DNA from: Chitinophaga pinensis DSM 2588
Lineage (GTDB): Bacteria; Bacteroidota; Bacteroidia; Chitinophagales; Chitinophagaceae
Direction of reading: 5' to 3'
Assembly (NCBI RefSeq): GCF_000024005.1
Contig: NC_013132.1
Location: 7,558,001-7,622,000 of the forward strand
Length of the DNA stretch: 64,000 bases
Of the stretch, positions 11,854 through 33,405 are shown piece after piece (the stretch's first letter is position 1; each line of letters begins with the position of its first letter). The translations under genes and the position numbers were made by a program. The notes under the pieces are model-generated. The model ran no database searches, was not told the DNA's origin, and saw nothing but the letters and a program-made list of their open reading frames with translations.

Positions 11854-12697
11854 AGTTTGTGCTTGTCAATAAATCACAGGTTTTAACCCTTTCTACCACT
11901 ATTATTGACAAGCAATTGACAAGCAGCATGCCAAGCAGAATTTGTCGTACCTCTCCCCTTTATCTTACCAAAACGGTCAGCAACAAAATTTCAAGACCCG
12001 TTCATATCGAGCGGTAAAAATTGACATCCCATTGACAGGTTCAAAATGGTAAATCTGTCAGAACTGACATCCATGCAGGAAAAATTTCGAAAAATACTTT
12101 ATCCACCCTTATTTTCACTTATTCCCGTTTATTCTAATTACCAGGTTTAAATGGGTCTTAAACGCTGCAACAAAAGACAAATAATTTCAGGATAATCCTA
12201 CGGAAGATGTTTCTGCTATTACAAATCCAAGTACAGATCTAAAAGAAAATTTGGAAGTAGAAGAGTATTTATCTTTATTAAAAACGCATGTTTAAATGAG
12301 GAGGTTCGATATGCATTCATATTTTGTTGCTATACAGGGCTTAGATGGGTTGATGTTGACCGAATTTGGGATAATGATATAATAGAAGATATACTTACTA
12401 CTCGAATAATACAAAAAGAAAACTGGACATCCGGTAACATTGACCCTCCATCCTATAGCCCAGGCGATAATCAAAATACAAAGGAAAAAACGAGGTAGTA
12501 TATCTGGAAACAAGAAGCTCTTCCAAATTCCAGGGCGAAATGGCTGTAATAAAATTCTTGAGGCATGGATAAAAACAGCAGGTATAGAAAAGCATATTAC
12601 CGGGTCCTGCGCCCGTCTATCTTTTTCAATTTTACTTAGGGATGCCCTTGTAGATGATGCCACGATCGCAACATTATTTGAAATAGTCAAGACTTAA

Positions 12698-13843
12698 TCT
12701 GACAGTAAGGGATTAACTTTAAGTAACCACACTTCGAATTAATCCCCTTTAAAACTGTCAGATATGAAAAGTAATGACAAGTTAATCAAAACGAAGTTAG
12801 GTCTGCTGAAATTAGCAGAAAACTTAGGTAACGTATCCCGTGCTTCTAAAGTGATGGGTTACAGCCGAGACAGCTTCTATCGCATCAAAGAGATGTATGA
12901 TACAGGCGGAGAGTTGGCCTTGCAAGAGATAAGCCGCTCTAAACCCATTCTTAAAAACCGAGTTGAACCATTTGTTGAAGAAGCCGTAGTAAAATTGGCT
13001 TGTGATTATCCTGCCTTTGGTCAGCAACGGGTGAGTAATGAACTTCGTAAACAAGGCATATTTATCTCTGCAGGCGGTGTGCGTAGTGTTTGGCAAAGGC
13101 ACGACCTGGAGGTATTTGATAAGAGATTAAAGTCCCTTGAAGCCAAGATTGCTCAGGATGGTATTATTCTCACGGAAGCTCAAATGATGGCTCTTGAACG
13201 GAAAAAGGAGAAAAGAGAGGCTTACGGAGAAATAGAAACAGAACATCCTGGTTACCTTGGAGCCCAGGATACTTATTACGTTGGAAGTATTAAAGGCGTT
13301 GGAAGAATTTATCAACAGACATTTATCGACACCTATTCCCGCATCGCTTTTGCAAAAGTTTACGACCGAAAAAATGCAATCGTAGCTGCTGATATTCTTA
13401 ATGATCGAGTACTTCCATTCTTCGAAGATCAAGATGTTCCTATGCTTCGTATTTTGACAGACCGAGGATCAGAATATAAAGGTAAATACGAGCATCATGA
13501 ATATGAGCTATATCTTACTATAGAGGGCATAGAACACTCTAAAACACAGGTGCGCAGCCCTCAGTCAAACGGGATCTGTGAGCGGCTTAACAGGACAATA
13601 AAAGAGGAGTTTTACGTTATTGCATTCCGTAAGACGATTTACACTACGTTAGAGCAACTACAGGCTGATTTAGATAACTGGCTTACTTACTACAACAACG
13701 AGCGACCTCACAGCGGAAAATACTGTTATGGTAAAACTCCCATGGAGACTTTTATTGCAACTAAACACCTGGCAAAAGAAAAACAATTAAATCAGTTATC
13801 TTTAGCTATCAATTAATCGTACAAAATCCCTTGTACTGTCAGA
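12698..13843 (+). mobile_element. IS481-family insertion sequence
   Basis: About 1146 bp. The left end TCTGACAGTAAGGGATT and the inverted right end (reads TCTGACAGTACAAGGGATT) match apart from a 2-nt gap. It carries one transposase gene and is inserted in the integrase relic. I see no clean target-site duplication. Confidence 0.82.
12764..13816 (+). CDS. IS481-family transposase
   Basis: A 350-residue DDE transposase that moves the element 12698-13843. An N-terminal helix-turn-helix region ([20 protein letters not shown]) is followed by an rve catalytic core: [20 protein letters not shown] (first Asp region), [10 protein letters not shown] (second Asp) and [19 protein letters not shown] (Glu). 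The C-terminal [20 protein letters not shown] is typical of the family. The frame is intact, so the element may still be active. A lone copy of its left end is found at 33387-33405. Confidence 0.92.
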
Positions 13844-14120
13844 TCAAGTACTGACTATTACACATTATTAGGACCTACAACAACAAAGCAGGTTAATAAG
13901 ACCTACAGAAGGCACAGGCTTAAAGACCAACTTTCTACCATTATGAAATTGCCATCAGTTGATATAAATAAATATTTTCTCCATCTTCCGGAAGGAGAAT
14001 CAGAATCATAAACTTAAAAGAAGGTGTTTCAAAAGTAAATTTTCCCTGATCATAACCCAGTTACTGATTGAACGGAATTTCACCTAAATGATGATTACTT
14101 GTGAGACACCTTCTTTTTAA

Positions 14121-15558: not shown

Positions 15559-16311
15559 TCAGTTTCTACCAGCCATTACTCCACCATCAACATCCCAGAC
15601 CGCACCTGTAACCCATGCTGCTTCATCAGAAAGCAGGAATACGATTGTATTAGCTACATCAACTGAGCGACCAACTCTACCGAGTGGATGAAAGCTATTA
15701 AAGCCCTGCAAAGTTTCTTCAATCTTATTCTTATCTATGAACGAACCATAGATAGGAGTTACTACTACAGCGGGAGAAACCGCATTTACACGAATATTTG
15801 CATCTGCTAGTTCCATTGCCAGATGTTGAGTGAGGCTATGCAAACCAGCTTTGGCCATAGAATATGCTGAGGAAGGAGTTGCTTTAATAGCCTGTTTAGC
15901 CCACATAGAGCCTATATTGACAATTGAACCTCCACCATTGATCTTCATTATGTGCGCCGCTGCCTGTGTAATAAAGAAGAATGCCTTATTAAAATCGTGG
16001 TAAATATTGTAATCAGCTTCAGTGTAATCCAGGAAAGATTTGGGGTTAAAATATCCTGCTGCATTTACCAGGTATTTTAGACCTGATAGCTCAGCTGCTA
16101 GTTTACCGTTGAAAGTATTTACTTCATCTTGTTTGGAAAGATCGAGGGCATAGATTCTTACTTTGCCCAATTTAGATAGCTCCTGTTTGACTTCCTGGAG
16201 TTTTATTTCACTCCTTCCAATGATAGCTACTTCAACTCCTTTATGCAACAATAATTCAGCTGTTGCTTTTCCCATACCAGTTGTACCGCCGACAATTAAT
16301 GCTTGTTCCAT
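15559..16311 (-). CDS. SDR-family oxidoreductase (island regulon member)
   Basis: A classical short-chain dehydrogenase of 250 residues, NAD(P)-dependent, substrate unknown. Nucleotide motif [14 protein letters not shown] at residues 8-21, NAAGYF, catalytic Ser in NIGSMW, and YSMAKAG with the Tyr-Lys pair. The C-terminal [11 protein letters not shown] is normal. Upstream (16350-16413) is the bipartite operator shared by the island genes, so it is probably under AraC control. A hairpin at 15501-15530, just past the stop, may end the transcript. Confidence 0.9.
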
Positions 16312-16349: not shown

Positions 16350-16413
16350 CAAAGGTGAATTATTCCGATAAGTATGAAAATGGACAAGCATGAAAAGAAA
16401 TGGTAATTTCAGG
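16350..16413 (-). promoter_or_regulatory. Shared island operator and -7 box, SDR promoter
   Basis: On the plus strand AAAATGG starts at 16377 and a second ATGG (AAATGGTAATTTC) starts at 16400, exactly 20 bp after the first ATGG at 16380. After a 19-nt gap the minus strand has CACCTTTG (16350-16357). 16414-16640 holds nothing I recognise. Confidence 0.72.
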
Positions 16414-16640
16414 CAAACAGTGAAATCCGGATCTGCTAGCGCCTATAATAGCAGGGTACTATTGTATTAATTACCCAAAAATAAGGTAAACCAATATCTT
16501 TTACAATCTGCTTACTCAGGGCGACACTATAACATAATGGCCGGCGATAGCAATTAAAAAAGGTTAAGGATACTAATTTATTCAAACATTATTAATAATC
16601 CTCCATTAATATATATTTTATCTTTTTTTGATGTAAAAAA

Positions 16641-16673
16641 ATATCAGGCAGTTACTTATAACATGCCTGATAT
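16641..16673 (-). terminator. Terminator of the ADH-OsmC operon
   Basis: ATATCAGGCA pairs perfectly with TGCCTGATAT. On the minus strand it is followed by a run of T. It lies 22 bases past the OsmC stop. Confidence 0.8.
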
Positions 16674-16694
16674 CTTGAATAGTTCAATACTGCC

Positions 16695-17090
16695 TTATTC
16701 TACTCCATAAACAAATTCATAAGAACGTTTAATTTCCGGGTTCAGGCTGTTTCCTATAGGACACATCTTTGTCGCTGCATCCTCCAGAATTTGTTTTTCC
16801 GCAGCATTGTAATCCCCTTTTCTAATAAAGCATTTAATATCTATTGTATCTAATCTACTCATATCAGGCATTGGCGAAAATCTAATCTCCGTTCTCGCTT
16901 CTGAAAGATTAAATCCATTTTGGCCCGCTATCATATCCATCACACTCATCATACAAGTCCCATAACCACCTACTAAAAAATTCATAGGCCTGAAATTTTC
17001 GGAATCGGCATTTAATGCTTCAGTATTTAATGGAGACACAATTGATGATTTGCCATTTCCAAGATACCTTGATTCTACTGTCGGCTGCAT
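16695..17090 (-). CDS. OsmC-family peroxiredoxin-like protein, copy 1
   Basis: A 131-residue OsmC/Ohr-fold protein expected to reduce organic peroxides or other electrophiles with a Cys pair. Both cysteines are present: GGYGTCMMSV and ATKMCPIGNSL. It sits 26 bases after the alcohol dehydrogenase gene on the same strand, so the two probably share the operator at 18183-18246. A paralogue (24069-24461) belongs to the second cargo set. Confidence 0.87.
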   Translation of the reverse strand: MQPTVESRYLGNGKSSIVSPLNTEALNADSENFRPMNFLVGGYGTCMMSVMDMIAGQNGFNLSEARTEIRFSPMPDMSRLDTIDIKCFIRKGDYNAAEKQILEDAATKMCPIGNSLNPEIKRSYEFVYGVE

Positions 17091-17116
17091 ATTTGTTCTG
17101 TTTAAGTTATTATTGA

Positions 17117-18166
17117 CTATAATCCTGACATATCAATCACAAACCGGTATTTCACATCACCTTTAAGCATTCTTTCAAAAGCAGTATTAATATAATCCGG
17201 CTGTATGACTTCAACATCTGCTGTAATATTATGCGTTGCACAGTAATCAAGCATTTCCTGTGTTTCTTCTATTCCACCAATAAAAGATCCAACTACCTTC
17301 CTTCTGCGAAAGATTAGCAAACCAGGATGAATAGGCGTTATTTCAGGTGGTACTCCCAATAAAACCAATGTTCCATCTTTCCTTAACAGATTTAAATACT
17401 TATTATAATCATGTCTGGCAGACACTGTATCTATAACAAAATCAAAACTTCCTATTTCCATTTTGGACCGGGCTTCATCATCTGTGTGAACAAAATTGTG
17501 AGCACCCAGTTCAAAAGCACTTTCTTTCTTAGATACACCACTGCTCAATACAGTAACAATGGCCCCAAATGACCGGGCAAATTTCACCGCCATGTGGCCT
17601 AACCCTCCCAATCCGAGTATAGCTACCTTATGTCCTATGCCAATCTGATTATGTTTTATTGCTGAATAAGTAGTAATCCCTGCACACAGAAGAGGTGCAA
17701 CCGCTGGCAATAGAAGTTTTTCTGAAACTTTCAGAATATATTTTTCTTTTACTACAATGCAATTTGAATAGCCACCTTTCGTCGTACTACCATCAGGAAG
17801 GACTCCATTATGTGTAGGCATCATACCATTATCACAAAAGTGTTCTTCGTGATTTACACAATTGACACAATGTCCGCAGGAATTGATAAAGTATCCTACA
17901 CCTACCAAATCGCCTATTATAAAATTTCTTACCTGACTACCGATTGAATGTACACGTCCAATAATTTCATGTCCTGGAACAAATGGGTATTTCGTACGCC
18001 CATATTCATTCTTTGATTGATGAATATCTGCATGGCATATACCACAGTACAATATGTCAATTAATACTTCCTCAACACCAGGTTCCTTTCTTTCAAAAGT
18101 GAAAGGAACTAATGGATCTGTATCATTCGTTGCTGCATATCCTTTAGAGATAATTAATTTTCCCAT
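17117..18166 (-). CDS. Zinc-dependent alcohol dehydrogenase, YahK/cinnamyl-ADH type
   Basis: A medium-chain NADP(H)-type dehydrogenase, 349 residues, probably reducing aldehydes. Catalytic zinc: CGICHADIHQSKNEYG and PFVPGHEIIGRV. Structural zinc: the cysteines of CGHCVNCVNHEEHFCDNG. Nucleotide site: VAILGLGGLGHMAVKFA. I chose the start at 18166 (MGKLIISKGYA): the longer frame to 18271 would run through the operator and -7 box (18183-18246) and has no homology-like sequence. It heads an operon with OsmC copy 1. Confidence 0.92.
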   Translation of the reverse strand: MGKLIISKGYAATNDTDPLVPFTFERKEPGVEEVLIDILYCGICHADIHQSKNEYGRTKYPFVPGHEIIGRVHSIGSQVRNFIIGDLVGVGYFINSCGHCVNCVNHEEHFCDNGMMPTHNGVLPDGSTTKGGYSNCIVVKEKYILKVSEKLLLPAVAPLLCAGITTYSAIKHNQIGIGHKVAILGLGGLGHMAVKFARSFGAIVTVLSSGVSKKESAFELGAHNFVHTDDEARSKMEIGSFDFVIDTVSARHDYNKYLNLLRKDGTLVLLGVPPEITPIHPGLLIFRRRKVVGSFIGGIEETQEMLDYCATHNITADVEVIQPDYINTAFERMLKGDVKYRFVIDMSGL

Positions 18167-18182
18167 TTTTATCAGTATCTTA

Positions 18183-18246
18183 CAAAGATCATCTATGCAA
18201 TTTGGATAAGAAATGGTGAAATCGGAAAATGACTGGTATATTTTAG
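18183..18246 (-). promoter_or_regulatory. Shared island operator and -7 box, ADH-OsmC promoter
   Basis: The near half GAAATGG starts at 18210 (ATGG at 18213); the far half CTGGTATATTTTAG starts at 18233, 20 bp later. After a 19-nt gap the minus strand has GATCTTTG (18183-18190). The divergent thioredoxin-like gene begins 77 bases beyond and may share the site. Confidence 0.68.
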
Positions 18247-18322
18247 AAGAAAGTGGGTTAGAATGGAACACTCGCTTATCTTATTCAAAAGAAAATTATT
18301 ACCATCCCTGAAATATAAGAAT

Positions 18323-18856
18323 ATGAAATTAATACTTACTTTGGCCCTGATGAGCAGTCTCATCTTTGAAGTTAAAGGTCATATTAACCGCAAAATTTTA
18401 AATTATTCAATCCTGGCAGCTGATAGTACTATAACTCCCGAACTGCCATTGAAGGATATTAAAGGAAACAATATTTCATTAAGTGCCTTTAAAGGAAAAA
18501 TAGTTTTCATAAATTTCTGGGCTACATGGTGTTCGCCATGTGTTGCCGAAATGGCTACAATCAATAAATTGAAACAATCTTTTAATAACAACGACAGCAT
18601 CGTATTTCTGCTTGTAGATATTGAAGAAGACATTCAAAAAGCAAACGCTTTTTTGATAAATAATAAATATGACCTGGATGTATATGAATATGCAGCAAAA
18701 AGACTTTTACCGGAAGAATTTCTGGGTAATGGAATACCAGTAAGCGTTGTGCTCGATAGGAAGGGGAATATCCGCTTGCGCTTTGACGGCCCTAAGGACT
18801 ATACATCTACCCAGATTAAAAAATCCTTGACTGATCTTATTGAGAAAGGTGAATAA
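18323..18856 (+). CDS. TlpA-like exported thioredoxin-fold protein
   Basis: A 177-residue thiol-disulfide protein, probably exported and anchored or periplasmic. The start at 18323 gives a signal-like N-terminus (MKLILTLALMSSLIFEVKG); the longer frame from 18263 adds a basic stretch without such a signal. The active site is WATWCSPC, followed by the cis-Pro region GNGIPVSVVLDRKGNIRLRF. It is divergent from the ADH-OsmC operon, so it may answer to the same operator. Confidence 0.85.
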   Translation: MKLILTLALMSSLIFEVKGHINRKILNYSILAADSTITPELPLKDIKGNNISLSAFKGKIVFINFWATWCSPCVAEMATINKLKQSFNNNDSIVFLLVDIEEDIQKANAFLINNKYDLDVYEYAAKRLLPEEFLGNGIPVSVVLDRKGNIRLRFDGPKDYTSTQIKKSLTDLIEKGE

Positions 18857-18912
18857 TTTTGAACAAAAACAGATCAGTAGAAAATATAAATACATTCTGC
18901 TGATTACCTTAC

Positions 18913-19110
18913 TCATCTTTTATATTTATAGTTAATTTCACAGGTGCCGGAACTGCAACCACCTTTTACGGTAAGACTAAAAACAACCATCAGTCCTCCC
19001 AATACAATAATTTGCCATTGTTGATCAATTATTCCGGAAATTGTAAAATAAGCCCCTATTACTAATTTAACAATAGTTGCCTTCGCTGGTCTTTTAAAAT
19101 ATTTAAACAT
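18913..19110 (-). CDS. Small two-helix membrane protein with a Cys-rich tail
   Basis: A 65-residue protein like DUF2892-type small membrane proteins. Two membrane segments: ATIVKLVIGAYFTISGII and WQIIVLGGLMVVFSLTV. The tail GGCSSGTC could bind a metal or form disulfides. It is supported as a real gene by a full island-type operator and -7 box directly upstream (19124-19182). The function is unknown; a redox or metal role would fit its neighbours. Confidence 0.72.
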   Translation of the reverse strand: MFKYFKRPAKATIVKLVIGAYFTISGIIDQQWQIIVLGGLMVVFSLTVKGGCSSGTCEINYKYKR

Positions 19111-19123
19111 TTTCTTTTTTATA

Positions 19124-19182
19124 CAAAGATGATGTAAAACTTAGGTAATGAAAAGGGAGTATTTAGAGAAAAAATGGTAATT
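19124..19182 (-). promoter_or_regulatory. Shared island operator and -7 box, small membrane protein gene
   Basis: AAAAGGG at 19151 (half-site AGGG at 19154) and ATGGTAATT at 19174, 20 bp later. After a 19-nt gap the minus strand has CATCTTTG (19124-19131). Confidence 0.68.
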
Positions 19183-19210
19183 AATTGAAGTTAACATTAC
19201 CTTAGATAAA

Positions 19211-19239
19211 AAAAGAGACTATCTAAAATAGTCTCTTTT
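19211..19239. terminator. Terminator after the ABM-like gene
   Basis: AAAAGAGACTAT pairs perfectly with ATAGTCTCTTTT, loop 5 nt, with flanking A and T runs. Confidence 0.82.
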
Positions 19240-19270
19240 CTGTTATCATCTATTATAAGCTGGAGTAACC

Positions 19271-19558
19271 CTATGCTACCGTATAGATCCTGACATCAGG
19301 ATTAGCCTTCAGATAAGGTTTCAATGCAGTTACCACATCCTGATTAAATAACTCGGTTTGAAGATATGCCGATGCATTTTCAACAGTGTCAAATTCATGC
19401 AAAACCTGGACATCCTCTTCACGAATTAATAATTCCTTGGCTTTCGCACCTTGGACATTATCTAAAAATGCTGCTTTGTATTTGTTATAAACACCGGCTG
19501 CGTTTGCTCTGTCTGCTGCATCAATCTGCATAGAGATTTGCAAATATGCTTTACTCAT
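19271..19558 (-). CDS. ABM-like / dimeric alpha-beta barrel protein
   Basis: A 95-residue protein of the ferredoxin-like dimeric barrel type, resembling antibiotic biosynthesis monooxygenase-like stress proteins. AYLQISMQIDAADRANAAGV, ELLIREEDVQVLHEFDTVEN and LKPYLKANPDVRIYTVA fit two beta-alpha-beta units. The fold assignment is by pattern only. The shared operator lies upstream (19583-19646), overlapping the 3' end of the AraC gene. Confidence 0.65.
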   Translation of the reverse strand: MSKAYLQISMQIDAADRANAAGVYNKYKAAFLDNVQGAKAKELLIREEDVQVLHEFDTVENASAYLQTELFNQDVVTALKPYLKANPDVRIYTVA

Positions 19559-19582
19559 GTTAATTAAGTTTTAATACGCTGT

Positions 19583-19646
19583 AAAATTCGTATTAATGCC
19601 CTTATTTTAAAATGGACAATACTGAAAAGCAATGGTAATTTTAAGC
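19583..19646 (-). promoter_or_regulatory. Shared island operator, ABM-like gene
   Basis: AAAATGG at 19610 (ATGG at 19613) and ATGGTAATTTTAAG at 19633, 20 bp later. The -7 position (19583-19590) reads GAATTTTA, the weakest of the set. The far half overlaps the AraC stop codon (19641-19643). Confidence 0.65.
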
Positions 19647-20534
19647 AATGGTCTTCCGGAAATCCGAAGGAGACATCTTTGTATGCTTCTTAAAGTACTT
19701 TACAAAATAAGATGGATCATCAAAGCCCATTCGAAAGCCGATCTGATTAATATTAAGGTTGGAATGTACAAGCAAACGCTGGGCTTCAAGAATAATTCGT
19801 TCCTGAATCATTTGAGAAGGTGTTTTATTTACCTGTTGATTGGTGAGGTCCGAAAGTGTACGTGTGGAAATATTTAATTTACGTGCATATTCATTAATTG
19901 TTAGTCCTTCTTTATAATGTTCTTCAACTAAATTGAAAAACTTAACCAGTTGTATACGTTTATCATCTGCAGTAAAAGAATCTGGTTGCTGAATATTATA
20001 TGCATTTTTACTTCGTTGTACCAATATCAGCACTGACTTCAGGTAGGCCCGGATTATTTCATTTCTCCCAAAAGGATTACTCTCAGCTAATTCTCCTTTC
20101 AGTTGTTGAATATTGATATCCAATTTTGAAATGGTTGAAGTATCAACCCTGCAATACGGCTGCTGGTATGGATTGTTGAATAAATTACATTTTAAGAAGA
20201 AATCCGTTTCATCATCCTGTCCCAGAAAAGTTTCATTGAAATGTAACAAAAAACCTTCGTATTCAATATTCTTATCAAAATAATGAACCTGATTTTTTGC
20301 TATAAAAAAAATCATCTGGTCATTCACTTCATGACTTATAAAGTCAACATAATGTTTACCCATTCCAGTTTTAAACCATATAATCTGGTAATAGCTATGA
20401 ATATGTGGCCTTGTTGTATTATTGCTATTTCTATTCAGATAGGTTTTTAGATCATGAATCACAAACTGGTCTTCACCTGGCTGGTGCCGGTTGAGATGAT
20501 ATTCTTCAATATTGCTATGCTGTTCTTTTGACAT
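19641..20534 (-). CDS. AraC-family regulator 1 of the island
   Basis: A 297-residue regulator with an N-terminal cupin-like sensor and a C-terminal double HTH. Sensor: HIHSYYQIIWFKTGMGKHYV and KNQVHYFDKNIEYEGFLLHF. DNA-binding part: TINEYARKLNISTRTLSDLT, then LNINQIGFRMGFDDPSYFVK and HTKMSPSDFRK. A close paralogue lies at 23013-23912. Direct-repeat operators 20 bp apart in front of the neighbouring genes are what an AraC-type activator binds. It is divergent from flavin oxidase 1 and has its own consensus -7 box. Confidence 0.92.
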   Translation of the reverse strand: MSKEQHSNIEEYHLNRHQPGEDQFVIHDLKTYLNRNSNNTTRPHIHSYYQIIWFKTGMGKHYVDFISHEVNDQMIFFIAKNQVHYFDKNIEYEGFLLHFNETFLGQDDETDFFLKCNLFNNPYQQPYCRVDTSTISKLDINIQQLKGELAESNPFGRNEIIRAYLKSVLILVQRSKNAYNIQQPDSFTADDKRIQLVKFFNLVEEHYKEGLTINEYARKLNISTRTLSDLTNQQVNKTPSQMIQERIILEAQRLLVHSNLNINQIGFRMGFDDPSYFVKYFKKHTKMSPSDFRKTIA

Positions 20535-20551
20535 ATTGCTGCAAAATGAAT

Positions 20552-20559
20552 CAAATTTA
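20552..20559 (-). promoter_or_regulatory. -7 box of AraC regulator 1
   Basis: The minus strand reads TAAATTTG, a perfect TAnnTTTG, 18 bases before the start. It differs from the CAnnTTTG boxes of the target genes. Confidence 0.5.
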
Positions 20560-20589
20560 CTTAAAGATAACGGCTACTTCTCCGCTTGC

Positions 20590-20651
20590 TTAAAGTTACC
20601 ATGTTTTTGCCTAAAAGTACAATATCAGCTAACCACTGAGTTTTACCTTCG
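20590..20651 (+). promoter_or_regulatory. Partial island operator and -7 box, flavin oxidase 1
   Basis: The far half TTAAAGTTACCAT (CCAT at 20599) is conserved; the near half is degenerate. The -7 box TACCTTCG (20644-20651) is one base closer than in the other promoters. Confidence 0.45.
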
Positions 20652-20655
20652 TGGC

Positions 20656-21705
20656 ATGTCTGAACATATTATTATCGTTGGTGGGGGCTTAAGTGGTTTA
20701 TCACTAGCCTGGTACTTAACTAAAAAAAACAAAACAGTTACTATACTTGAAGCAACCACCAGGTTAGGTGGCAGGATAGAAACAATAGCTGGGAAAACAG
20801 GAACACCACTTGAGTTAGGTGCGACATGGTTTTCAGATATGCATAGCAAATTAAAAGAATTAATTGATGAGTTAGGCCTGGATACCTTCCCGCAGTTTTC
20901 CGGCGGCATTTCCCTATTTCAAACCAAGTCCTTTGAGCCCCCACAGCAATTTTTTATTACTGCTGCTGAACAACCATCCTATAGAATTGCAGGAGGTACA
21001 TACAAGCTAATTGAAGCATTATTAAATAAATTAAAAGGACAAACCATTATTACTGATAATGCTGTCACAAAAATAGACGCCGGGCAATATCCCATAAATA
21101 TTACTACGAATAATGGGGAAGTTTACACTGGGGATAAAGTCGTGTTATGTATGCCCCCTCAGCTAATAGGTGACCAAATCAATATCTTGCCCAAACTATC
21201 CGGGGAACTGTCTTCACTGCTGTCCACAGTTCATACCTGGATGGCAGGTTCAGTAAAATTTGTACTGGAATATAATCACCCCTTCTGGCGAAATAGTGGC
21301 TATTCCGGCATGCTATTCAGCCATGCCGGTATTGTTACAGAAATGTATGATCATACAAATTTTGAAGAAAATAAGTTTGGCTTTACTGGATTTCTAAATG
21401 GAGGAGCCGCCGGATATGAATATTCAATACGGAAACAACTCGTACTGGAGCAATTATCCGGCCTGCTTGGCAATAAAGCGATGGAGCCACTTTCTTATAA
21501 TGATAAAATTTGGTCTGACAAATTTACAATAACCTCACCACAGGTCATCCGATACCCTCATCAGCATAACGGACATGAACTGTTGCAGTCGGGTTATATG
21601 GACGGAAGATTGTTCTTTGGAGGTTCTGAAACATCCTCTAATTGTCCTGGATATATGGAAGGTGCAGTCGTAGCCGCACATCGCGTGGCGACGAATATTA
21701 ATTAG
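20656..21705 (+). CDS. FAD-dependent amine oxidase-like enzyme, copy 1
   Basis: A 349-residue flavoprotein of the flavin monoamine oxidase superfamily. The dinucleotide fold IIIVGGGLSGLSLAWYL is at residues 5-21, then LEATTRLGGRIET (GG doublet) and GTPLELGATWFSDMH. The C-terminal FAD motif is SSNCPGYMEGAVVAAHRVA. I chose the start at 20656 (MSEHIIIV), since the FAD fold begins there and the -7 box lies just upstream. The substrate is unknown. It is followed after 23 bases by a thioredoxin-like gene, forming an operon. It is closely similar throughout to copy 2 at 24566. Confidence 0.88.
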   Translation: MSEHIIIVGGGLSGLSLAWYLTKKNKTVTILEATTRLGGRIETIAGKTGTPLELGATWFSDMHSKLKELIDELGLDTFPQFSGGISLFQTKSFEPPQQFFITAAEQPSYRIAGGTYKLIEALLNKLKGQTIITDNAVTKIDAGQYPINITTNNGEVYTGDKVVLCMPPQLIGDQINILPKLSGELSSLLSTVHTWMAGSVKFVLEYNHPFWRNSGYSGMLFSHAGIVTEMYDHTNFEENKFGFTGFLNGGAAGYEYSIRKQLVLEQLSGLLGNKAMEPLSYNDKIWSDKFTITSPQVIRYPHQHNGHELLQSGYMDGRLFFGGSETSSNCPGYMEGAVVAAHRVATNIN

Positions 21706-21728
21706 ACGAAATATCTTAATATTTAAAC

Positions 21729-22295
21729 ATGACATTTGAAGAATACTATACCTACTTTGAAAGTATCATCAATCACGATCCATCTACACTAGTTACTCCT
21801 TATGACAAACAGGAATACATAGATTATACAAGGCTCAACTGGAGCCGGATGAACCGGTGGTTAAAAAAGGGCCAATTATCTGATGAGCTCCTGGAAATTG
21901 TCAAAAAAATCTGTATACCTCAAACCTGGATTGTTATAACAGAGCCATGGTGTGGTGATGCTGCACACAGTATACCATTTATAAAAATGATAAGTGATAC
22001 TAATCCACTTATAAATGTTTTATATGAATTAAGAGATAGTGAACCGTATAGGATTAACAGCTATCTTACTAAGGGGAGCAAGTCTATTCCTAAGGTTATT
22101 TATAGAAGTGATAAAGAAGCTGATGTGATGGTATGGGGGCCGCGCCCTTTGAAATGCCAGCTTATGTATGATCAACTTTTGGCTAATCAGGCACCATTTG
22201 AAGAAATAAAAACAGCACTTCAACATTGGTATAATACTAATAAAGGCGTAGATATTCAGCAGGAGCTGGCAATACAGTTAAGCAAAAAGCTGTAG
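21729..22295 (+). CDS. Thioredoxin-fold protein with a single active-site Cys
   Basis: A 188-residue protein of the Thioredoxin_9 type common in Bacteroidota. The active-site stretch is TEPWCGDAAHSIPFI: one Cys where thioredoxin has CxxC, so ordinary disulfide exchange is unlikely without a partner. The cis-Pro region is KGSKSIPKVIY. It follows flavin oxidase 1 closely and is probably co-transcribed. The stretch 22296-22486 holds only a weak hairpin (22316-22339). Confidence 0.8.
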   Translation: MTFEEYYTYFESIINHDPSTLVTPYDKQEYIDYTRLNWSRMNRWLKKGQLSDELLEIVKKICIPQTWIVITEPWCGDAAHSIPFIKMISDTNPLINVLYELRDSEPYRINSYLTKGSKSIPKVIYRSDKEADVMVWGPRPLKCQLMYDQLLANQAPFEEIKTALQHWYNTNKGVDIQQELAIQLSKKL

Positions 22296-22486
22296 TGCTA
22301 TAGCAAAAACAGCAAAGGCTACCGATTAAGGTAACCTTCACAATTAAAAACCTCTCGTACAAGGGTAATTATTAACCAGCATTACGCTAAAGGAAGAATT
22401 CACTAACGCCAATTTTAAAAAAAGGAAATTTTTAATGAAATACATAATCTGGTTTACAATATCCAACCGATTGATTTTTAAAATCC

Positions 22487-22795
22487 TTATTTCTGTTCCA
22501 CAGTTATATGCTCTCCAATGCGCTTAATAATTTCCGTTCCTGGATAAACACCAGTATGCTTCCATACGATCTCATTATTTTTAAAAAGTATGGTTGTTGG
22601 AATACTACGAATACCAAACTTTCCTGATAACTGCGCATATTCATCTACATCTATACGCTCGTAATTAATTCGCTCACCATAATGTGCTGCTGCCTGGTCC
22701 AGGTTTGGCTTCATAGCATGGCAGGGACCACACCACGTAGCGAAAAAATTTATTAAGGTTGGTTTCTCTGATTTAATAATCTCTAATACGTCCAT
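22487..22795 (-). CDS. Thioredoxin
   Basis: A 102-residue cytoplasmic thioredoxin. The active site FFATWCGPCHAMKP has the classic CGPC; GIRSIPTTILFKNNEIV supplies the cis-Pro. It would give electrons to OsmC-type or other thiol enzymes in the island. The shared operator and -7 box lie directly upstream (22821-22884), so it belongs to the same regulon. Confidence 0.92.
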   Translation of the reverse strand: MDVLEIIKSEKPTLINFFATWCGPCHAMKPNLDQAAAHYGERINYERIDVDEYAQLSGKFGIRSIPTTILFKNNEIVWKHTGVYPGTEIIKRIGEHITVEQK

Positions 22796-22820
22796 AATGT
22801 TGATTTAAAATTATCAGATG

Positions 22821-22884
22821 CAAAGTTGAGTAAACCTTCATTTTAAAAAAATGGAGATAACAGAAAACAAATGGTAATAACAGG
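22821..22884 (-). promoter_or_regulatory. Shared island operator and -7 box, thioredoxin
   Basis: AAAATGG at 22848 (ATGG at 22851) and ATGGTAATAACAG at 22871, 20 bp later. After a 19-nt gap the minus strand has CAACTTTG (22821-22828). A further half-site-like ATGGTAATTTTGAG lies at 22904, 33 bp beyond. Confidence 0.7.
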
Positions 22885-22980
22885 TAGCCAGGTAGTTAAA
22901 AGGATGGTAATTTTGAGAAAAATCATGGTTACTTTCAGCATATCAACTCCTGGATTGGGGCAAATTTTTCCTTATAATAT

Positions 22981-22988
22981 TACCTTTG
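22981..22988 (+). promoter_or_regulatory. -7 box of AraC regulator 2
   Basis: TACCTTTG, a perfect match, 25 bases before the ATG at 23013, with TTG at 22955-22957. Confidence 0.5.
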
Positions 22989-23012
22989 TTATATAAGATA
23001 TAGCATGTAATT

Positions 23013-23912
23013 ATGGATAGCGAAAAGGCAAATGTTATTACCGAATATCATCTGAATAATCATGAACCAGATAAACCCCAGTTTGCAGTTTATGACATGA
23101 AAGACTATCTAAAGGGGCATCATTGTTCAGTTTCAAAACCACATATTCATAGTTTTTACCAGATCATCTGGTTTCAATCCGGTCAGGGAAAACATTTTGT
23201 GGATTTTGAAGTATATGATGTGTTTGAAAATGCGATGTTTTTTATTGCTCCCAATCAAGTACATTATTTTGATGAAAACTCCGATTATGAAGGTATATTA
23301 ATACATTTTAATGAGCCATATCTATTACCGGATGCCAGTGAGTTTTCCTTCTTTTTAAAATGCAGTTTATTTAACAATCCATACCAGCAGCCAGCCTGTT
23401 GTATTGGTAGTGGCATTAAGCACCAACTTGAAAAGTATATTGGTTTAATTAAGGAAGAATTGGAAGGTGCATTGTCATTTGGCAAAGATGAATTGATAAG
23501 AATATATCTAATGGCATTTCTGGTACAGACACAGCGATGCAAGTATGAATTTGAAAAAAGAACCGGCAAGCCGCTTTTTACGGTTGACGAAAAAAGAATG
23601 CAGGTAATTAAATTTGTTAATCTTATTAACGAAAATTACACCAAAGGTCTTTCGATCGTTGAATATGCTAAATTTATGAGCATATCATCCCGTACCCTTT
23701 CTGACCTGATTGGTTTGGTGCTCAACAAAACACCGTTACAAATGATTCAGGAAAGAATCATTCTGGAAGCAAAACGTTTATTATTACATTCAAGTTTAAA
23801 TGTCAATCAAATTGGATATAGATTAGGATTTGATGACCCATCCTATTTTGTAAAATACTTCAGAAGGCAAACAGGTTTTTCGCCAACTGATTTTCGCAAA
23901 TCCATAATGTGA
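23013..23912 (+). CDS. AraC-family regulator 2 of the island
   Basis: A 299-residue paralogue of the regulator at 19641, alike over its full length: EYHLNNHEPDKPQFAVYDMK, PHIHSFYQIIWFQSGQGKHF, then the HTH parts SIVEYAKFMSISSRTLSDLI and LNVNQIGYRLGFDDPSYFVK. Two closely related activators and one shared operator suggest that both bind the same site, perhaps with different inducers because the sensor half differs more. It is followed by OsmC 2 and flavin oxidase 2, mirroring the first set. Confidence 0.92.
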   Translation: MDSEKANVITEYHLNNHEPDKPQFAVYDMKDYLKGHHCSVSKPHIHSFYQIIWFQSGQGKHFVDFEVYDVFENAMFFIAPNQVHYFDENSDYEGILIHFNEPYLLPDASEFSFFLKCSLFNNPYQQPACCIGSGIKHQLEKYIGLIKEELEGALSFGKDELIRIYLMAFLVQTQRCKYEFEKRTGKPLFTVDEKRMQVIKFVNLINENYTKGLSIVEYAKFMSISSRTLSDLIGLVLNKTPLQMIQERIILEAKRLLLHSSLNVNQIGYRLGFDDPSYFVKYFRRQTGFSPTDFRKSIM

Positions 23913-23920
23913 CCTTATAA

Positions 23921-23984
23921 CTTAAAATTACCAGCTCTTTTCAGTTATTTCCATTTTCAGGCATGCTATTAAAGCTCAAATTTG
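23921..23984 (+). promoter_or_regulatory. Shared island operator and -7 box, OsmC 2 / flavin oxidase 2
   Basis: In gene orientation the far half CTTAAAATTACCAG (CCAG at 23931) and near half CCATTTT (23951-23957) are 20 bp apart. After a 19-nt gap comes CAAATTTG (23977-23984). This plus-strand site is the mirror of the minus-strand ones and fixes the polarity of the operator. Confidence 0.72.
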
Positions 23985-24068
23985 TAGTGTATACGCTGTT
24001 ACACAATACCGGTGTTAATCTGGCTTAATGCCGGTTAATTTTAAAATTATTTCTTTAAAACTCATATT

Positions 24069-24461
24069 ATGTCAAATGTAATTTCAACTGCTTATCAGGG
24101 AAAATTCAAAGCCACTACAGAAGCACCCCTGAATGACAACCCTATAACAGTAAATGCTGTTCAATTTTCTCCGGTAGATCTGTTAATCAGCGCCTATGGC
24201 AGCTGTTTATTAGGGACCATTGACTACGTAGCTCAAACGAAACTTTTTGAAGTAAACAATTCAAAAAGTGAAATTACCTATGAAATGAGTACGACAGGAA
24301 GTGGCGTTGGGAAAATTAATATCAAACTGTTCTTTAAAGATGATTATTCGGCAGAACAGCGGGAAGTAATTGAAAATGCAGCAAAGAAGCAATGTCATGT
24401 GGGTAATACGATTGATGCCAGAATTGAAAAAGAATTTCAATTTATCTACAGCCATAGCTAA
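24069..24461 (+). CDS. OsmC-family peroxiredoxin-like protein, copy 2
   Basis: A 130-residue OsmC/Ohr-fold protein with both catalytic cysteines: YGSCLLGTID and AAKKQCHVGNT. It is the paralogue of 16695-17090. It is transcribed from the operator at 23921-23984 with a leader of about 80 nt, and a hairpin (24515-24545) separates it from flavin oxidase 2. Confidence 0.87.
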   Translation: MSNVISTAYQGKFKATTEAPLNDNPITVNAVQFSPVDLLISAYGSCLLGTIDYVAQTKLFEVNNSKSEITYEMSTTGSGVGKINIKLFFKDDYSAEQREVIENAAKKQCHVGNTIDARIEKEFQFIYSHS

Positions 24462-24514
24462 TTTAATTTCTACATGAGAATGTTGAGATTGAAATAATTG
24501 GTTTTTGCACCTTG

Positions 24515-24545
24515 AATGGCATACGGAGTACTTCCGTATGCCATT
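24515..24545 (+). terminator. Hairpin between OsmC 2 and flavin oxidase 2
   Basis: AATGGCATACGGA pairs perfectly with TCCGTATGCCATT, loop 5 nt. There is only a weak T-run after it, so it may attenuate or process the message rather than end it. Confidence 0.6.
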
Positions 24546-24565
24546 TGCTAATATAATTTTTACCA

Positions 24566-25618
24566 ATGGAATATGATTACTTAATTATAGGTGGTGGATT
24601 AAGTGGCCTTACTTTAGCTTATTTGTTAAAAAAAAAGGGAATTAACGCACTAATCCTGGAAGGGGCCGATAGAACAGGTGGCAGAATCAAAACAGTTAAC
24701 GGTACTTTAGGTACACCGATGGAGTTAGGAGCCACCTGGTTCTCAGATGCACATATCAACTTAATAGAACTATTAGATGAATTGGGCCTTCATAAGTTTC
24801 CGCAATATAATACAGGTCTTTCCTTGTTCTATACCCGGCCAGATCAACCACCCCAGCAATTTTATGTACCAGAAGAAACATCTCCTTCCTATCGGCTGGC
24901 AGGTGGTACGCAGAACCTCATTAAAAACCTCATGGGGAAGCTGGAAAAAAATACTATACAACTTAACACAAAAGTCAGTAAAATTTCTGCTAAAAACGAA
25001 TACCTATATGCGGAGACAACAGACAATAGAATTTATAAAGCCCGGTATATATTTTTATGTTTACCACCACAACTCGCAGGATCCGATATAAAATTTGAGC
25101 CTTCATTACCTGAAAACCTACTTTCAATTATGCCCAGGATACAAACGTGGATGGCAGGGTCCATTAAATTTATACTTGAGTATGATCAACAATTCTGGAG
25201 AAAGGCGGGTTTTTCAGGCATGATTTATAGCAATGCTGGTATTATAACAGAAATGTATGACCATACAAATTATGAAGGTAATAAATTTGGGTTTACCGGA
25301 TTTTTGCACGAAGAGGCGCAACAATTTAGTCAGGAAGAACGTAAAAAGATGGTCCTGGAACAAGTAGCTCACAACTATGGAGATCGGGCGTTATATCCGT
25401 TATTATACGAAGATAAAATCTGGACAGGTAAATTTTTACTTTCAGGTAATCCAATTATCAGGTTACGGCATTTAAATAATGGACATCCATTACTACAATC
25501 CCGATATATGGATGACCGCCTTTTTTTCTGTGCAACAGAAAGTTCACCTCATTATCCTGGCTATATGGAAGGGGCTGTTATGGTAGCGAAAAATATAATG
25601 AAAACATTGGGAGTATAA
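24566..25618 (+). CDS. FAD-dependent amine oxidase-like enzyme, copy 2
   Basis: A 350-residue paralogue of 20656-21705. FAD fold YLIIGGGLSGLTLAYLL, GGRIKTVNGTLGTPMELGAT, and the C-terminal SSPHYPGYMEGAVMVAKNI. The MAGSIKFILEY and GIITEMYDHTNYEGNKFGFT segments nearly match copy 1, so both probably act on related substrates. No Cys in the position of covalent flavin attachment is obvious. It ends at a strong bidirectional terminator. Confidence 0.88.
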   Translation: MEYDYLIIGGGLSGLTLAYLLKKKGINALILEGADRTGGRIKTVNGTLGTPMELGATWFSDAHINLIELLDELGLHKFPQYNTGLSLFYTRPDQPPQQFYVPEETSPSYRLAGGTQNLIKNLMGKLEKNTIQLNTKVSKISAKNEYLYAETTDNRIYKARYIFLCLPPQLAGSDIKFEPSLPENLLSIMPRIQTWMAGSIKFILEYDQQFWRKAGFSGMIYSNAGIITEMYDHTNYEGNKFGFTGFLHEEAQQFSQEERKKMVLEQVAHNYGDRALYPLLYEDKIWTGKFLLSGNPIIRLRHLNNGHPLLQSRYMDDRLFFCATESSPHYPGYMEGAVMVAKNIMKTLGV

Positions 25619-25627
25619 TCACTTTAA

Positions 25628-25662
25628 ATATGAGAGGCTGTATAATACACAGCCTCTCATAT
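25628..25662. terminator. Bidirectional terminator, flavin oxidase 2 / MFS
   Basis: ATATGAGAGGCTGT pairs perfectly with ACAGCCTCTCATAT, loop 7 nt, between convergent genes. Confidence 0.85.
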
Positions 25663-25664
25663 AT

Positions 25665-26858
25665 TCATTGTATTCTTGGTTGCGTACCTGTTTTTCTAAT
25701 GCTATTAATAACCATGGTAGTTAGCGAAATAACCAGCAAAGGAATGACAGCCAGATTAACTCCCTTCCACCCATAAGCATTTAGAAGGTTACCAGCGGAA
25801 AAGCCAGAAGCACTGATAACGGTAAATACAAAGAAGTCGTGCATTGCCTGGGTTTTTGCTTTCTCCTGTGGCCGATATGCCTGCGTAAGTAATGTTGTAC
25901 CACCTATAAACATAAAATTCCAGCCAATTCCTAACAAAATAAGACCAGAAACAAAATGCATAAAATCGGTACCTGATATTGCAAATGACACATGTATAAA
26001 TAATATAATAATACCGGTGATGATGATTCTATGTACACCGAATCTTTTTATCAGCGTACCGGTAAAAAATGATGGTACGAACATACCCAAGACATGCCAT
26101 TGTATCACCATAGCTGCATCATCACTGTTGTGTCCGGAATGATGCATTGCCAATGGAGTGGCCGTCATTACCATATTCATTACCGAATAACCCACTGCAG
26201 ATGAAATCAGTGCACTAATTGTAAGCCTGTTGAAAACTATCTCCCTCAGAGACCTGGCTGGTTGTAAATCCTCCACTATATTTTGCAATGAAACCTTTGG
26301 CTGTTGTATATTAAATATGATAGCCAACGCACATACACTCAAAATCGCTATAGATAAATAACAGTAAGCAAATGGTACTGGTCCTACATGCTGTGTAAAT
26401 CTGGCAAGGTTAGGCCCGGCTATAGCTGCCACTACCCCTCCAGCAAGTACAAACGAGATTGCTTTCCCTTTATTCTCATCTGTTACTGCATCAGCAGCTG
26501 CAAATCGGTAATATTGAGAAAACCCCTGATAAAATCCGATCATCATGTTAGCCATAACAAATAGCGGGAAAGAACCCCTAACGATTGCATAAGATGCTAA
26601 TAACCCACCACTAAGACCAAATGCAATACCTGACATAAATCCCTTTCGCTGACCAATTTTCTTTATAATAAAGGAAGCTGGAATCATCATCATAGCTGTC
26701 CCTAATGACATCATGCCAATAGGTAATGTTGCCAAACTTTTATTCGATGCAAGGTTCAGCCCCACCATGCCTGATATAGTAAAAACTATAATTGATGAAG
26801 TTTGGAAAAGTGATTGAGCAATTGATAAAATAATAACTTTATTCCATTGTGTTTTCAT
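25665..26858 (-). CDS. MFS transporter
   Basis: A 397-residue, 12-helix major facilitator protein, inner membrane, probably an exporter. The helices are plain, e.g. FPLFVMANMMIGFYQGFSQY and LILLGIGWNFMFIGGTTLL; loop motifs KKIGQRKGFMSG and KRFGVHRIIITG fit the MFS repeat. The substrate is unknown; export of the compound that induces the regulon is a fair guess. The shared operator is 149 bases upstream (27007-27070), and it is the last cargo gene before the att repeat. Confidence 0.87.
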   Translation of the reverse strand: MKTQWNKVIILSIAQSLFQTSSIIVFTISGMVGLNLASNKSLATLPIGMMSLGTAMMMIPASFIIKKIGQRKGFMSGIAFGLSGGLLASYAIVRGSFPLFVMANMMIGFYQGFSQYYRFAAADAVTDENKGKAISFVLAGGVVAAIAGPNLARFTQHVGPVPFAYCYLSIAILSVCALAIIFNIQQPKVSLQNIVEDLQPARSLREIVFNRLTISALISSAVGYSVMNMVMTATPLAMHHSGHNSDDAAMVIQWHVLGMFVPSFFTGTLIKRFGVHRIIITGIIILFIHVSFAISGTDFMHFVSGLILLGIGWNFMFIGGTTLLTQAYRPQEKAKTQAMHDFFVFTVISASGFSAGNLLNAYGWKGVNLAVIPLLVISLTTMVINSIRKTGTQPRIQ

Positions 26859-27006
26859 GCCACTGAACGATAATTTAATTTGAAATTTGATGCATTACTT
26901 ATATAGTATATGGGATGGTCAAAAGGCCACCCATAATTAGGTGACCTCTCTCTTATAACTAAATAGGCATTAGACATTCAAATGATATACTTTTTTTATT
27001 TCGATG

Positions 27007-27070
27007 CAAAGTTGACGAAAGATGAAGAATAAATTGATGTACATTATTGCAAACAAATGGTAAGTTTCAG
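27007..27070 (-). promoter_or_regulatory. Shared island operator and -7 box, MFS gene
   Basis: The near half TTGATGT starts at 27034 (half-site ATGT at 27037); the far half ATGGTAAGTTTCAG starts at 27057, 20 bp later. After a 19-nt gap the minus strand has CAACTTTG (27007-27014). The rest of 26859-27571 has no gene I recognise. Confidence 0.65.
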
Positions 27071-33311: not shown

Positions 33312-33386
33312 AATTGGATCTCGATTCTGATGATTTTTCAAAGCTAAAGTGTGCTTATCTCTTTAACTGTAGAAGTTAAAACTCAA

Positions 33387-33405
33387 TCTGACAGTAAGCG
33401 ATTAA
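33387..33405 (+). repeat. Lone IS481-element terminal repeat
   Basis: TCTGACAGTAAGCGATTAA, one mismatch from the left end of the IS at 12698. No transposase is attached. Confidence 0.65.

Follow-up and report, generated by a model that had tools for sequence, protein, structure and literature searches.

The 64-kb window analysed here, that is, the whole 64,000-nucleotide stretch of the Chitinophaga pinensis DSM 2588 chromosome from position 7,558,001 to 7,622,000 of contig NC_013132.1, contains a 30-bp bipartite operator in front of seven transcription units and a diverged copy in front of an eighth, together with the genes of two AraC-family regulators, AraC1 and AraC2. From the sequence comparisons presented below, it is very probable that an activator of the AraC1/AraC2 subfamily acts on the tandem half-sites of this operator and thereby switches redox and detoxification genes. 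A preliminary description of this DNA had proposed an AraC regulon confined to a single island bounded by att sites; the regulon has held up on comparison with other genomes, and the confinement to an island has not.

Operators of the window and of its genome

The operator comprises a TTACCA-type half, 17 nt, and a CCATTTT-type half. The sites and boxes of the window are listed below; mismatches refer to the spaced pattern (operator, spacing, and TTTG) unless otherwise indicated, and scores are those of the other-genome matrix described in the next section.

16377..16406, minus strand: SDR operator (TTACCA..CCATTTT), 0 mismatches, score 29.7
16350..16357, minus strand: SDR promoter -7 box, CACCTTTG
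18210..18239, minus strand: operator of the ADH-OsmC1 unit (ATACCA..CCATTTC), 3 mismatches, score 27.4
18183..18190, minus strand: ADH-OsmC1 -7 box, GATCTTTG
19151..19180, minus strand: small membrane protein operator, 2 mismatches to the operator-only pattern, score 28.3
19124..19131, minus strand: small membrane protein -7 box, CATCTTTG
19609..19638, minus strand: ABM-like operator, 1 mismatch, score 34.4
19582..19589, minus strand: ABM-like -7 box, GAATTTTA
20596..20625, plus strand: flavin oxidase 1 operator, diverged (TTACCAT..ACAATA), score 15.9
20644..20651, plus strand: flavin oxidase 1 -7-like box, TACCTTCG, one base closer than in the other seven
22848..22877, minus strand: thioredoxin operator, 1 mismatch, score 32.3
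22821..22828, minus strand: thioredoxin -7 box, CAACTTTG
23928..23957, plus strand: operator of the OsmC2-flavin oxidase 2 unit, 2 mismatches, score 29.6
23977..23984, plus strand: OsmC2-flavin oxidase 2 -7 box, CAAATTTG
27034..27063, minus strand: MFS operator (second half ACATCAA), 2 mismatches, score 15.4
27007..27014, minus strand: MFS -7 box, CAACTTTG, the same letters as the thioredoxin box
from 20559 down, minus strand: perfect TAnnTTTG box of AraC1, TAAATTTG
from 22981, plus strand: perfect TAnnTTTG box of AraC2, TACCTTTG

When the seven full operators are aligned on TTACCA, two CCA-type cores stand 20 bp apart in every one of them, and the end of the near half-site is separated from the 8-base -7 box by 19 nt, again in all seven. 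These positions and distances are exactly those reported in the preliminary description, and the letters of the seven boxes, the partial eighth copy at flavin oxidase 1 with its closer box, and the perfect boxes before both AraC genes were likewise reproduced. The half-sites had also been given there as TTACCAT followed by CCATTTT, which was too uniform: both halves are perfect (TTACCA and CCATTTT) at only four of the seven, those of SDR, ABM-like, thioredoxin, and OsmC2, and variants are found for ADH (ATACCAG with CCATTTC), the small membrane protein (CCCTTTT), and MFS (ACATCAA).

The genome, a single contig of 9,127,347 bases, was searched whole, with the pattern read backwards as a control. 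The spaced pattern with up to three mismatches occurs seven times, compared to none for the control, which is more than chance. Six of the matches are the SDR, ABM-like, thioredoxin, OsmC2, MFS, and ADH sites and one lies outside the window; missing from this set are the sites of the small membrane protein and of flavin oxidase 1, which have diverged too far. With the operator alone, there are six matches at up to two mismatches, five in the cluster (the membrane protein included) and one outside the window, and 14 at up to three mismatches against 8 for the control, so that most of the matches added at this last level are background. The outside operator is found at genome positions 7644282-7644337, 22 kb past the end of the window, between a third AraC paralog (AraC3) and a truncated SDR gene. 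AraC3 is 59% identical to AraC1 and is encoded ~60 kb away on the same chromosome, and the flavin oxidase gene divergent from it has an operator site of its own (L016:9300, L016 being the AraC3 locus). Judged by eye, genes beside AraC3 (genome 7643000-7649000, equal to L016:7000-13000) look like those of methionine sulfoxide reductases B and A, together with one for a thioredoxin-like protein.

The operator beside AraC relatives in other Bacteroidota

The three AraC proteins, searched against genome contigs, recovered 136 relatives, and the best 80 of the 136 were used as loci L017-L096. Scanned over these 80 loci, a matrix of the seven window sites gave 60 matches scoring at least 20, compared to 3 for the reversed matrix. 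The matrix was then retrained twice, and in the 80 loci, the window, and L016 there are 105 sites scoring at least 15, with at least one operator in 73 of the 80 loci. The -7 box lies outside the matrix. TTTG is found at offset 55 or 56 in 89 of the 105 sites (6 for the best other pair of offsets), and a -7-like TT[TC][GA] at the same two adjacent offsets in 99 of them (15 for the best other pair); when the window and L016 are removed, the figures are 82 and 89 of 95, respectively. In the opposite direction, a matrix whose 90 sites came exclusively from other genomes (71 loci) was scanned on both strands of the window, and its top eight places are exactly the eight sites listed above, with scores from 34.4 down to 15.4, followed by a ninth place at 7.9 and a best reversed-matrix score of 10.8. 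Within this set, flavin oxidase 1 (15.9) and MFS (15.4) are weak members. Because the 90 sites were found from a matrix that started with the window's seven, which were kept in the retraining, this is a strong test of consistency and not a blind one. The AraC loci of three genomes from a separate search (G006, G065, and G119) have sites scoring 29.0, 31.3, and 39.1, and an operator-like site also occurs at a locus from Calditrichota (L092), but there the box is out of register.

Whole-genome scans bear on whether the operator follows the regulator or its targets. AraC is encoded, at an E value of 1e-60 or better, in 4 of 147 genomes of the family, and the spaced pattern with 0-1 mismatch was found among the 147 only in three of these four, the fourth having a 3-mismatch site beside AraC. 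In the other family genomes, 3-mismatch matches occur near the rate of the reversed pattern, and there is one 2-mismatch match (G005). Among 395 genomes of the phylum, the spaced pattern with up to two mismatches is present six times in the genome studied here and once in each of two others, which have no listed AraC match and whose surrounding loci score at most 2.4 with the matrix; the reversed pattern gives one match in each of four genomes. For the targets, no operator accompanies an SDR ortholog of 73% identity whose genome lacks this AraC (best score 2.4), and the ABM-like gene, at an E value of 1e-12, is found in 1 of the 395 phylum genomes, that of C. pinensis itself. The AraC-less SDR ortholog adjoins a gene that reads by eye as methionine sulfoxide reductase A.

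Taken at the level of sequence, an AraC regulon is well supported by the sites in the 73 loci, the 99 boxes in register, the chance-level matches in the sampled genomes without the AraC, and the SDR case. The regulon is not, as the preliminary description had it, a speciality of one island, as AraC3 with its own operator lies outside the window and the system is widespread in Bacteroidota. Since the same site adjoins AraC relatives in distant bacteria of the phylum, the regulator, operator, and targets seem to have spread jointly, as a single switch. A tblastn search of AraC2 against 72,556 plasmid records returned 731 with a match, all below 60% identity, and thus no close plasmid relative among those records.

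Several results weigh against this reading. No site reaches the threshold in 7 of the 80 loci (L041, L046, L048, L050, L053, L054, and L096), three of which (L050, L053, and L054) have weaker look-alikes at the same place as the sites of L052 and L055, and part of the 105 sites are due to chance, the reversed matrix giving 10 at a score of at least 14 and 5 at 16 or above. In the phylum sample, four of the five AraC genomes have no strict-pattern match, leaving only the C. pinensis genome with one, and with only five AraC genomes, the co-occurrence there is thin. Three of those four belong with L041 and L046 to a long-branched subclade inside clade A and have no operator near the gene (L140-L142, from G460, G362, and G479, with none in the 3.9 kb examined), and the fourth, a Zobellia, has the other box register (L143, from G322, which carries the AraC of L075, also Zobellia, whose site falls outside the stretch examined). 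The 80 loci were moreover chosen for AraC, so that its linkage to the operator depends on the whole-genome scans and the single case of an SDR without AraC. AraC1 and AraC2 are 55% identical, which leaves two candidate regulators for each site, and for the detoxification role the evidence consists of protein families.

Proposed mechanism and promoter types

AraC1 and AraC2 both score above the Pfam cut-offs for HTH_18 and HTH_AraC, as expected for the C-terminal double helix-turn-helix of the AraC/XylS family, and for AraC_binding, corresponding to the N-terminal cupin-type domain. For AraC2, the predicted structure (mean pLDDT 84) matches the regulatory domain of RhaR with a target-normalised TM of up to 0.81. 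Across 32 aligned sequences, H44, Q50, and H84 are invariant and H46 is nearly so. H46 has been lost in L041, L046, and L142, which belong to the same subclade and all lack an operator near the gene, a coincidence that is suggestive (L140 repeats the L046 protein, and this reading leaves out L141). A cysteine redox switch in the AraC proteins was considered and rejected, as neither C116 nor C129 is conserved throughout the subfamily.

In the mechanism that we propose, two DNA-binding domains of an AraC-family activator would sit in tandem on each operator, with TACCAT-N3-TTTTC as the far half-site and TGTCCATTT as the near one; the near CCATTT lies 20 bp downstream of the far CCATTT. With +1 placed from the published position of the -7 box, the operator would extend from about -60 to -32, so that the near half-site would take the place of the -33 element and an activator bound there could touch RNA polymerase, consistent with class II activation. 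The cupin-type N-terminal domain would sense the signal, and activation would let sigma-A use a weak -7 box (G/C at -12 in the window, and TTCG or TTTA at several flavin-oxidase promoters). A site placed over -35/-33 at a fixed distance from the core, as is characteristic of class II promoters, is what the register of 99 of the 105 boxes describes, the starts being taken from the box itself. AraC binding, activation, and the class of inducer are all inferred from sequence.

The missing first T of the -7 box, which had been described for all seven operator promoters of the window, is not general and follows the AraC clade. Among the 89 sites whose TTTG is in register (the 16 others were set aside; the window and L016 contribute 7 clade A sites), G/C replaces T at -12 in 32 of 36 sites of clade A, to which the window's AraC belongs, and in 5 of 7 sites of clade C, whereas T is present in all 41 sites of clade B and all 5 of clade D. 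The offset is 56 in 35 of the 36 clade A sites; in clade B it is 55 in 34 sites, with 7 in the other register. Promoter type clusters on the AraC tree, with 18 changes compared to 42.0 in shuffled data and none of 200 shuffles as low, a figure to which near-copies contribute, and is thus a trait of lineage. One reading of these counts ties an 18-nt spacing to a TA box and lets a 19-nt spacing compensate for G/C; it was rejected as unproven, since T is found at both spacings in clade B and throughout clade D, and since G/C follows the AraC clade, any such effect is confounded with descent.

Flavin-oxidase promoters often have TTCG or TTTA in place of TTTG, and 4 of the 15 listed are at offset 55 in clade A loci. 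In Flavobacterium psychrophilum, the -7 box is placed at -12 to -5 (PMC9723704), and +1 was accordingly set five bases after the box. On this basis, the first in-frame ATG falls on the predicted +1 in 7 of 15 flavin-oxidase promoters, those of the window, L016, L017, L019, L029, L036, and L037 (flavin oxidase 1 of the window has the A of its ATG, at 20656, on the predicted +1), and one base after it in L034. Of the remaining flavin-oxidase promoters, six have leaders of 25 (three), 28, 190, and 198 nt and one has no ATG found, and the shortest leader at the 82 other sites measured is 3 nt. An ATG on the predicted +1 predicts leaderless flavin-oxidase mRNAs, in about six independent cases, as L016 and L029 are near relatives. 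The system would then be somewhat unusual in two respects: certain AraC clades have G/C at -12, and the flavin-oxidase mRNAs are predicted to be leaderless.

Targets, alternative explanations, and neighbouring features

The genes of the window cluster are as follows.

15559..16311, minus strand: SDR oxidoreductase
16695..17090, minus strand: OsmC-like protein 1
17117..18166, minus strand: zinc alcohol/aldehyde dehydrogenase (ADH); best NCBIfam model aldehyde reductase Ahr, with a score under its cut-off
start of the open reading frame (ORF) at 19111, minus strand: small membrane protein
19271..19558, minus strand: ABM-like protein, 95 aa
19641..20534, minus strand: AraC-family regulator 1 (AraC1)
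20656..21705, plus strand: flavin amine-oxidase-like enzyme 1
21729..22295, plus strand: Thioredoxin_9 protein, 3' of flavin oxidase 1
22487..22795, minus strand: thioredoxin
23013..23912, plus strand: AraC-family regulator 2 (AraC2)
24069..24461, plus strand: OsmC-like protein 2
24566..25618, plus strand: flavin amine-oxidase-like enzyme 2
25665..26858, minus strand: MFS transporter

The 95-aa protein matches no Pfam or NCBIfam family at an E value of 0.001, and a search of the PDB found nothing related to it in sequence (best E value, 0.28). Its predicted model (pLDDT 92.6) has an ABM-type fold, and the Foldseek top ten (query TM 0.70-0.83) include entries titled ABM, IsdI, and unnamed proteins; the structural matches are ABM-type proteins, and lower among them is PA0709, for which one entry has a title mentioning glyoxal modifications. 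A few sources label relatives of the protein as ABM domain-containing or YgiN, and relatives at 66-67% identity are present outside Bacteroidota, in Bilophila wadsworthia.

Target labels at the 105 sites are most often SDR (41), followed by ABM-like (24), flavin oxidase (14), and thioredoxin (2), with single labels for OsmC2, ADH, MFS, the small membrane protein, and AraC itself, and the rest unlabelled or without an ORF. Ten proteins picked by hand near or downstream of sites at other loci comprise OsmC (2), ketopantoate-reductase-like, glyoxalase-like, thiopurine-methyltransferase-like, DJ-1/PfpI, ChrR-cupin, phosphorylase, and sigma-70 domains, and one protein without a match, and the gene content around the sites differs from locus to locus. 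Together, the target families, the structural matches of the ABM-like protein, and the genes beside AraC3 favour defence against electrophiles or oxidants, and the targets (SDR, the aldehyde-reductase-like ADH, OsmC, thioredoxins, flavin oxidase, ABM-like, and MFS proteins) may serve this purpose, a role that we regard as plausible rather than probable. A fuller version is tentative and, taken whole, somewhat doubtful: a module for reactive electrophiles or oxidants spread among Bacteroidota, in which the conserved cupin residues H44-x-H46...Q50...H84 may form a binding site for a metal or redox ligand, with a promoter class of its own having G/C for T at -12 and a leaderless flavin oxidase in which operator, box, and start codon would be one fixed unit.

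The same regulator and operator could instead control uptake and catabolism of a specific compound, such as an aromatic amine or phenol, with the flavin amine oxidase, ADH, and SDR catalysing steps of the pathway and the MFS protein importing the compound. The flavin enzyme is indeed similar to monoamine and putrescine oxidases, and among NCBIfam models both AraC proteins score best with HpaA, the regulator of 4-hydroxyphenylacetate catabolism (TIGR02297), but their scores of 119.5 and 108.3 bits are far under its cut-off of 274.65 and place neither in the HpaA family. OsmC proteins and thioredoxins in the window, glyoxalase-like, DJ-1/PfpI, and thiopurine-methyltransferase-like proteins in single other loci, and the variation in gene content between loci do not resemble one pathway, and we consider a catabolic regulon unlikely. 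Distinctly less likely is that the AraC proteins bind the operator and repress by blocking the -33 region until a ligand relieves them. The near half-site does lie over that region, and in clade B the T of the -7 box is always present; a promoter that was merely repressed would need neither the T-less boxes prevalent in the window's clade nor the TTCG and TTTA boxes of the flavin oxidases, and an exact box spacing is also required by the activator AggR, according to the portion of the report drawn on here (PMC6392122). That another, unlinked regulator binds the operator and the adjacency of AraC is coincidental is scarcely credible: only one case of a target without AraC was found to judge it by, but the tandem geometry suits AraC proteins, the operator adjoins AraC in nearly all the loci while falling to chance level in the sampled genomes without it, and the displaced third paralog has an operator as well.

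The activation proposed for an AraC1/AraC2-type protein can be set beside several known systems, within the parts of the cited papers on which these comparisons draw. XylS at the Pm promoter of Pseudomonas putida is likewise an AraC-family activator acting at a promoter through two direct repeats of two boxes each (PMC5481539); its repeats are TGCA-N6-GGTA, 15 bp long, whereas those described here are TACCAT-N3-TTTTC with a shorter near repeat, a 20-bp periodicity, and a Bacteroidota -7 promoter, and the regulon here spans many units. RhaR of Bacteroides, compared by description, is also a Bacteroidota AraC activator with a direct-repeat motif, but with a 21-bp periodicity and targets in rhamnose catabolism (PMC3870299). 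AggR of enteroaggregative Escherichia coli has a similarly fixed distance from site to -10 element (22 bp optimal, 21-23 used; PMC6392122), but has a single site and proteobacterial promoters in contrast to two half-sites placed 19 or 18 nt from the -7 box. CmrA of Pseudomonas aeruginosa, an AraC-type activator tied to an electrophile response, is a functional analogy only (PMC6018408). CgrA of Zobellia galactanivorans is a positive regulator of the AraC family from Bacteroidota, but one for the use of carrageenan, and no binding motif was found in the portion of that paper drawn on (PMC5698469). The Bacteroidota AraC-family operators compared here, as far as these sources describe them, concern sugar use (PMC3870299, PMC5698469), and a full-text literature search, with most subscription papers outside its coverage, found no title or abstract opening describing the present motif or regulon. 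A single 30-bp site, the phasing of its -7 box, and its targets are fixed enough for immediate testing in many species. The site also provides a handle on uncharacterised enzymes, namely, the conserved SDR, the short amine-oxidase-like flavoprotein, and the ABM-fold protein, and could supply Bacteroidota genetics with a natural, tightly phased activator-dependent promoter.

As for the ends of the supposed island, a transposase element at ~12696-13845 has a probable terminal inverted repeat, with which the repeat at 12674 and 33363 overlaps, and the exact repeat AATCTGACAGTAAG at 12696 and 33385 (33385-33398) coincides with that inverted repeat. The overlap means that the repeat is no proof of att sites, and AATCTGACAGTAAG may be an insertion sequence end instead.

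Two further observations concern the AraC genes themselves. Two more TTACCAT-like half-sites are found at 22910 and 22931, 21 bp apart by eye and facing the thioredoxin gene (matrix score 6.2), and these extra half-sites (22905-22931), lying between the thioredoxin operator and the AraC2 promoter, might have a role in autoregulation. In Dysgonomonas sp. BGC7, an operator-like site (L069:9908) is located directly before the AraC gene, where autoregulation is again possible.

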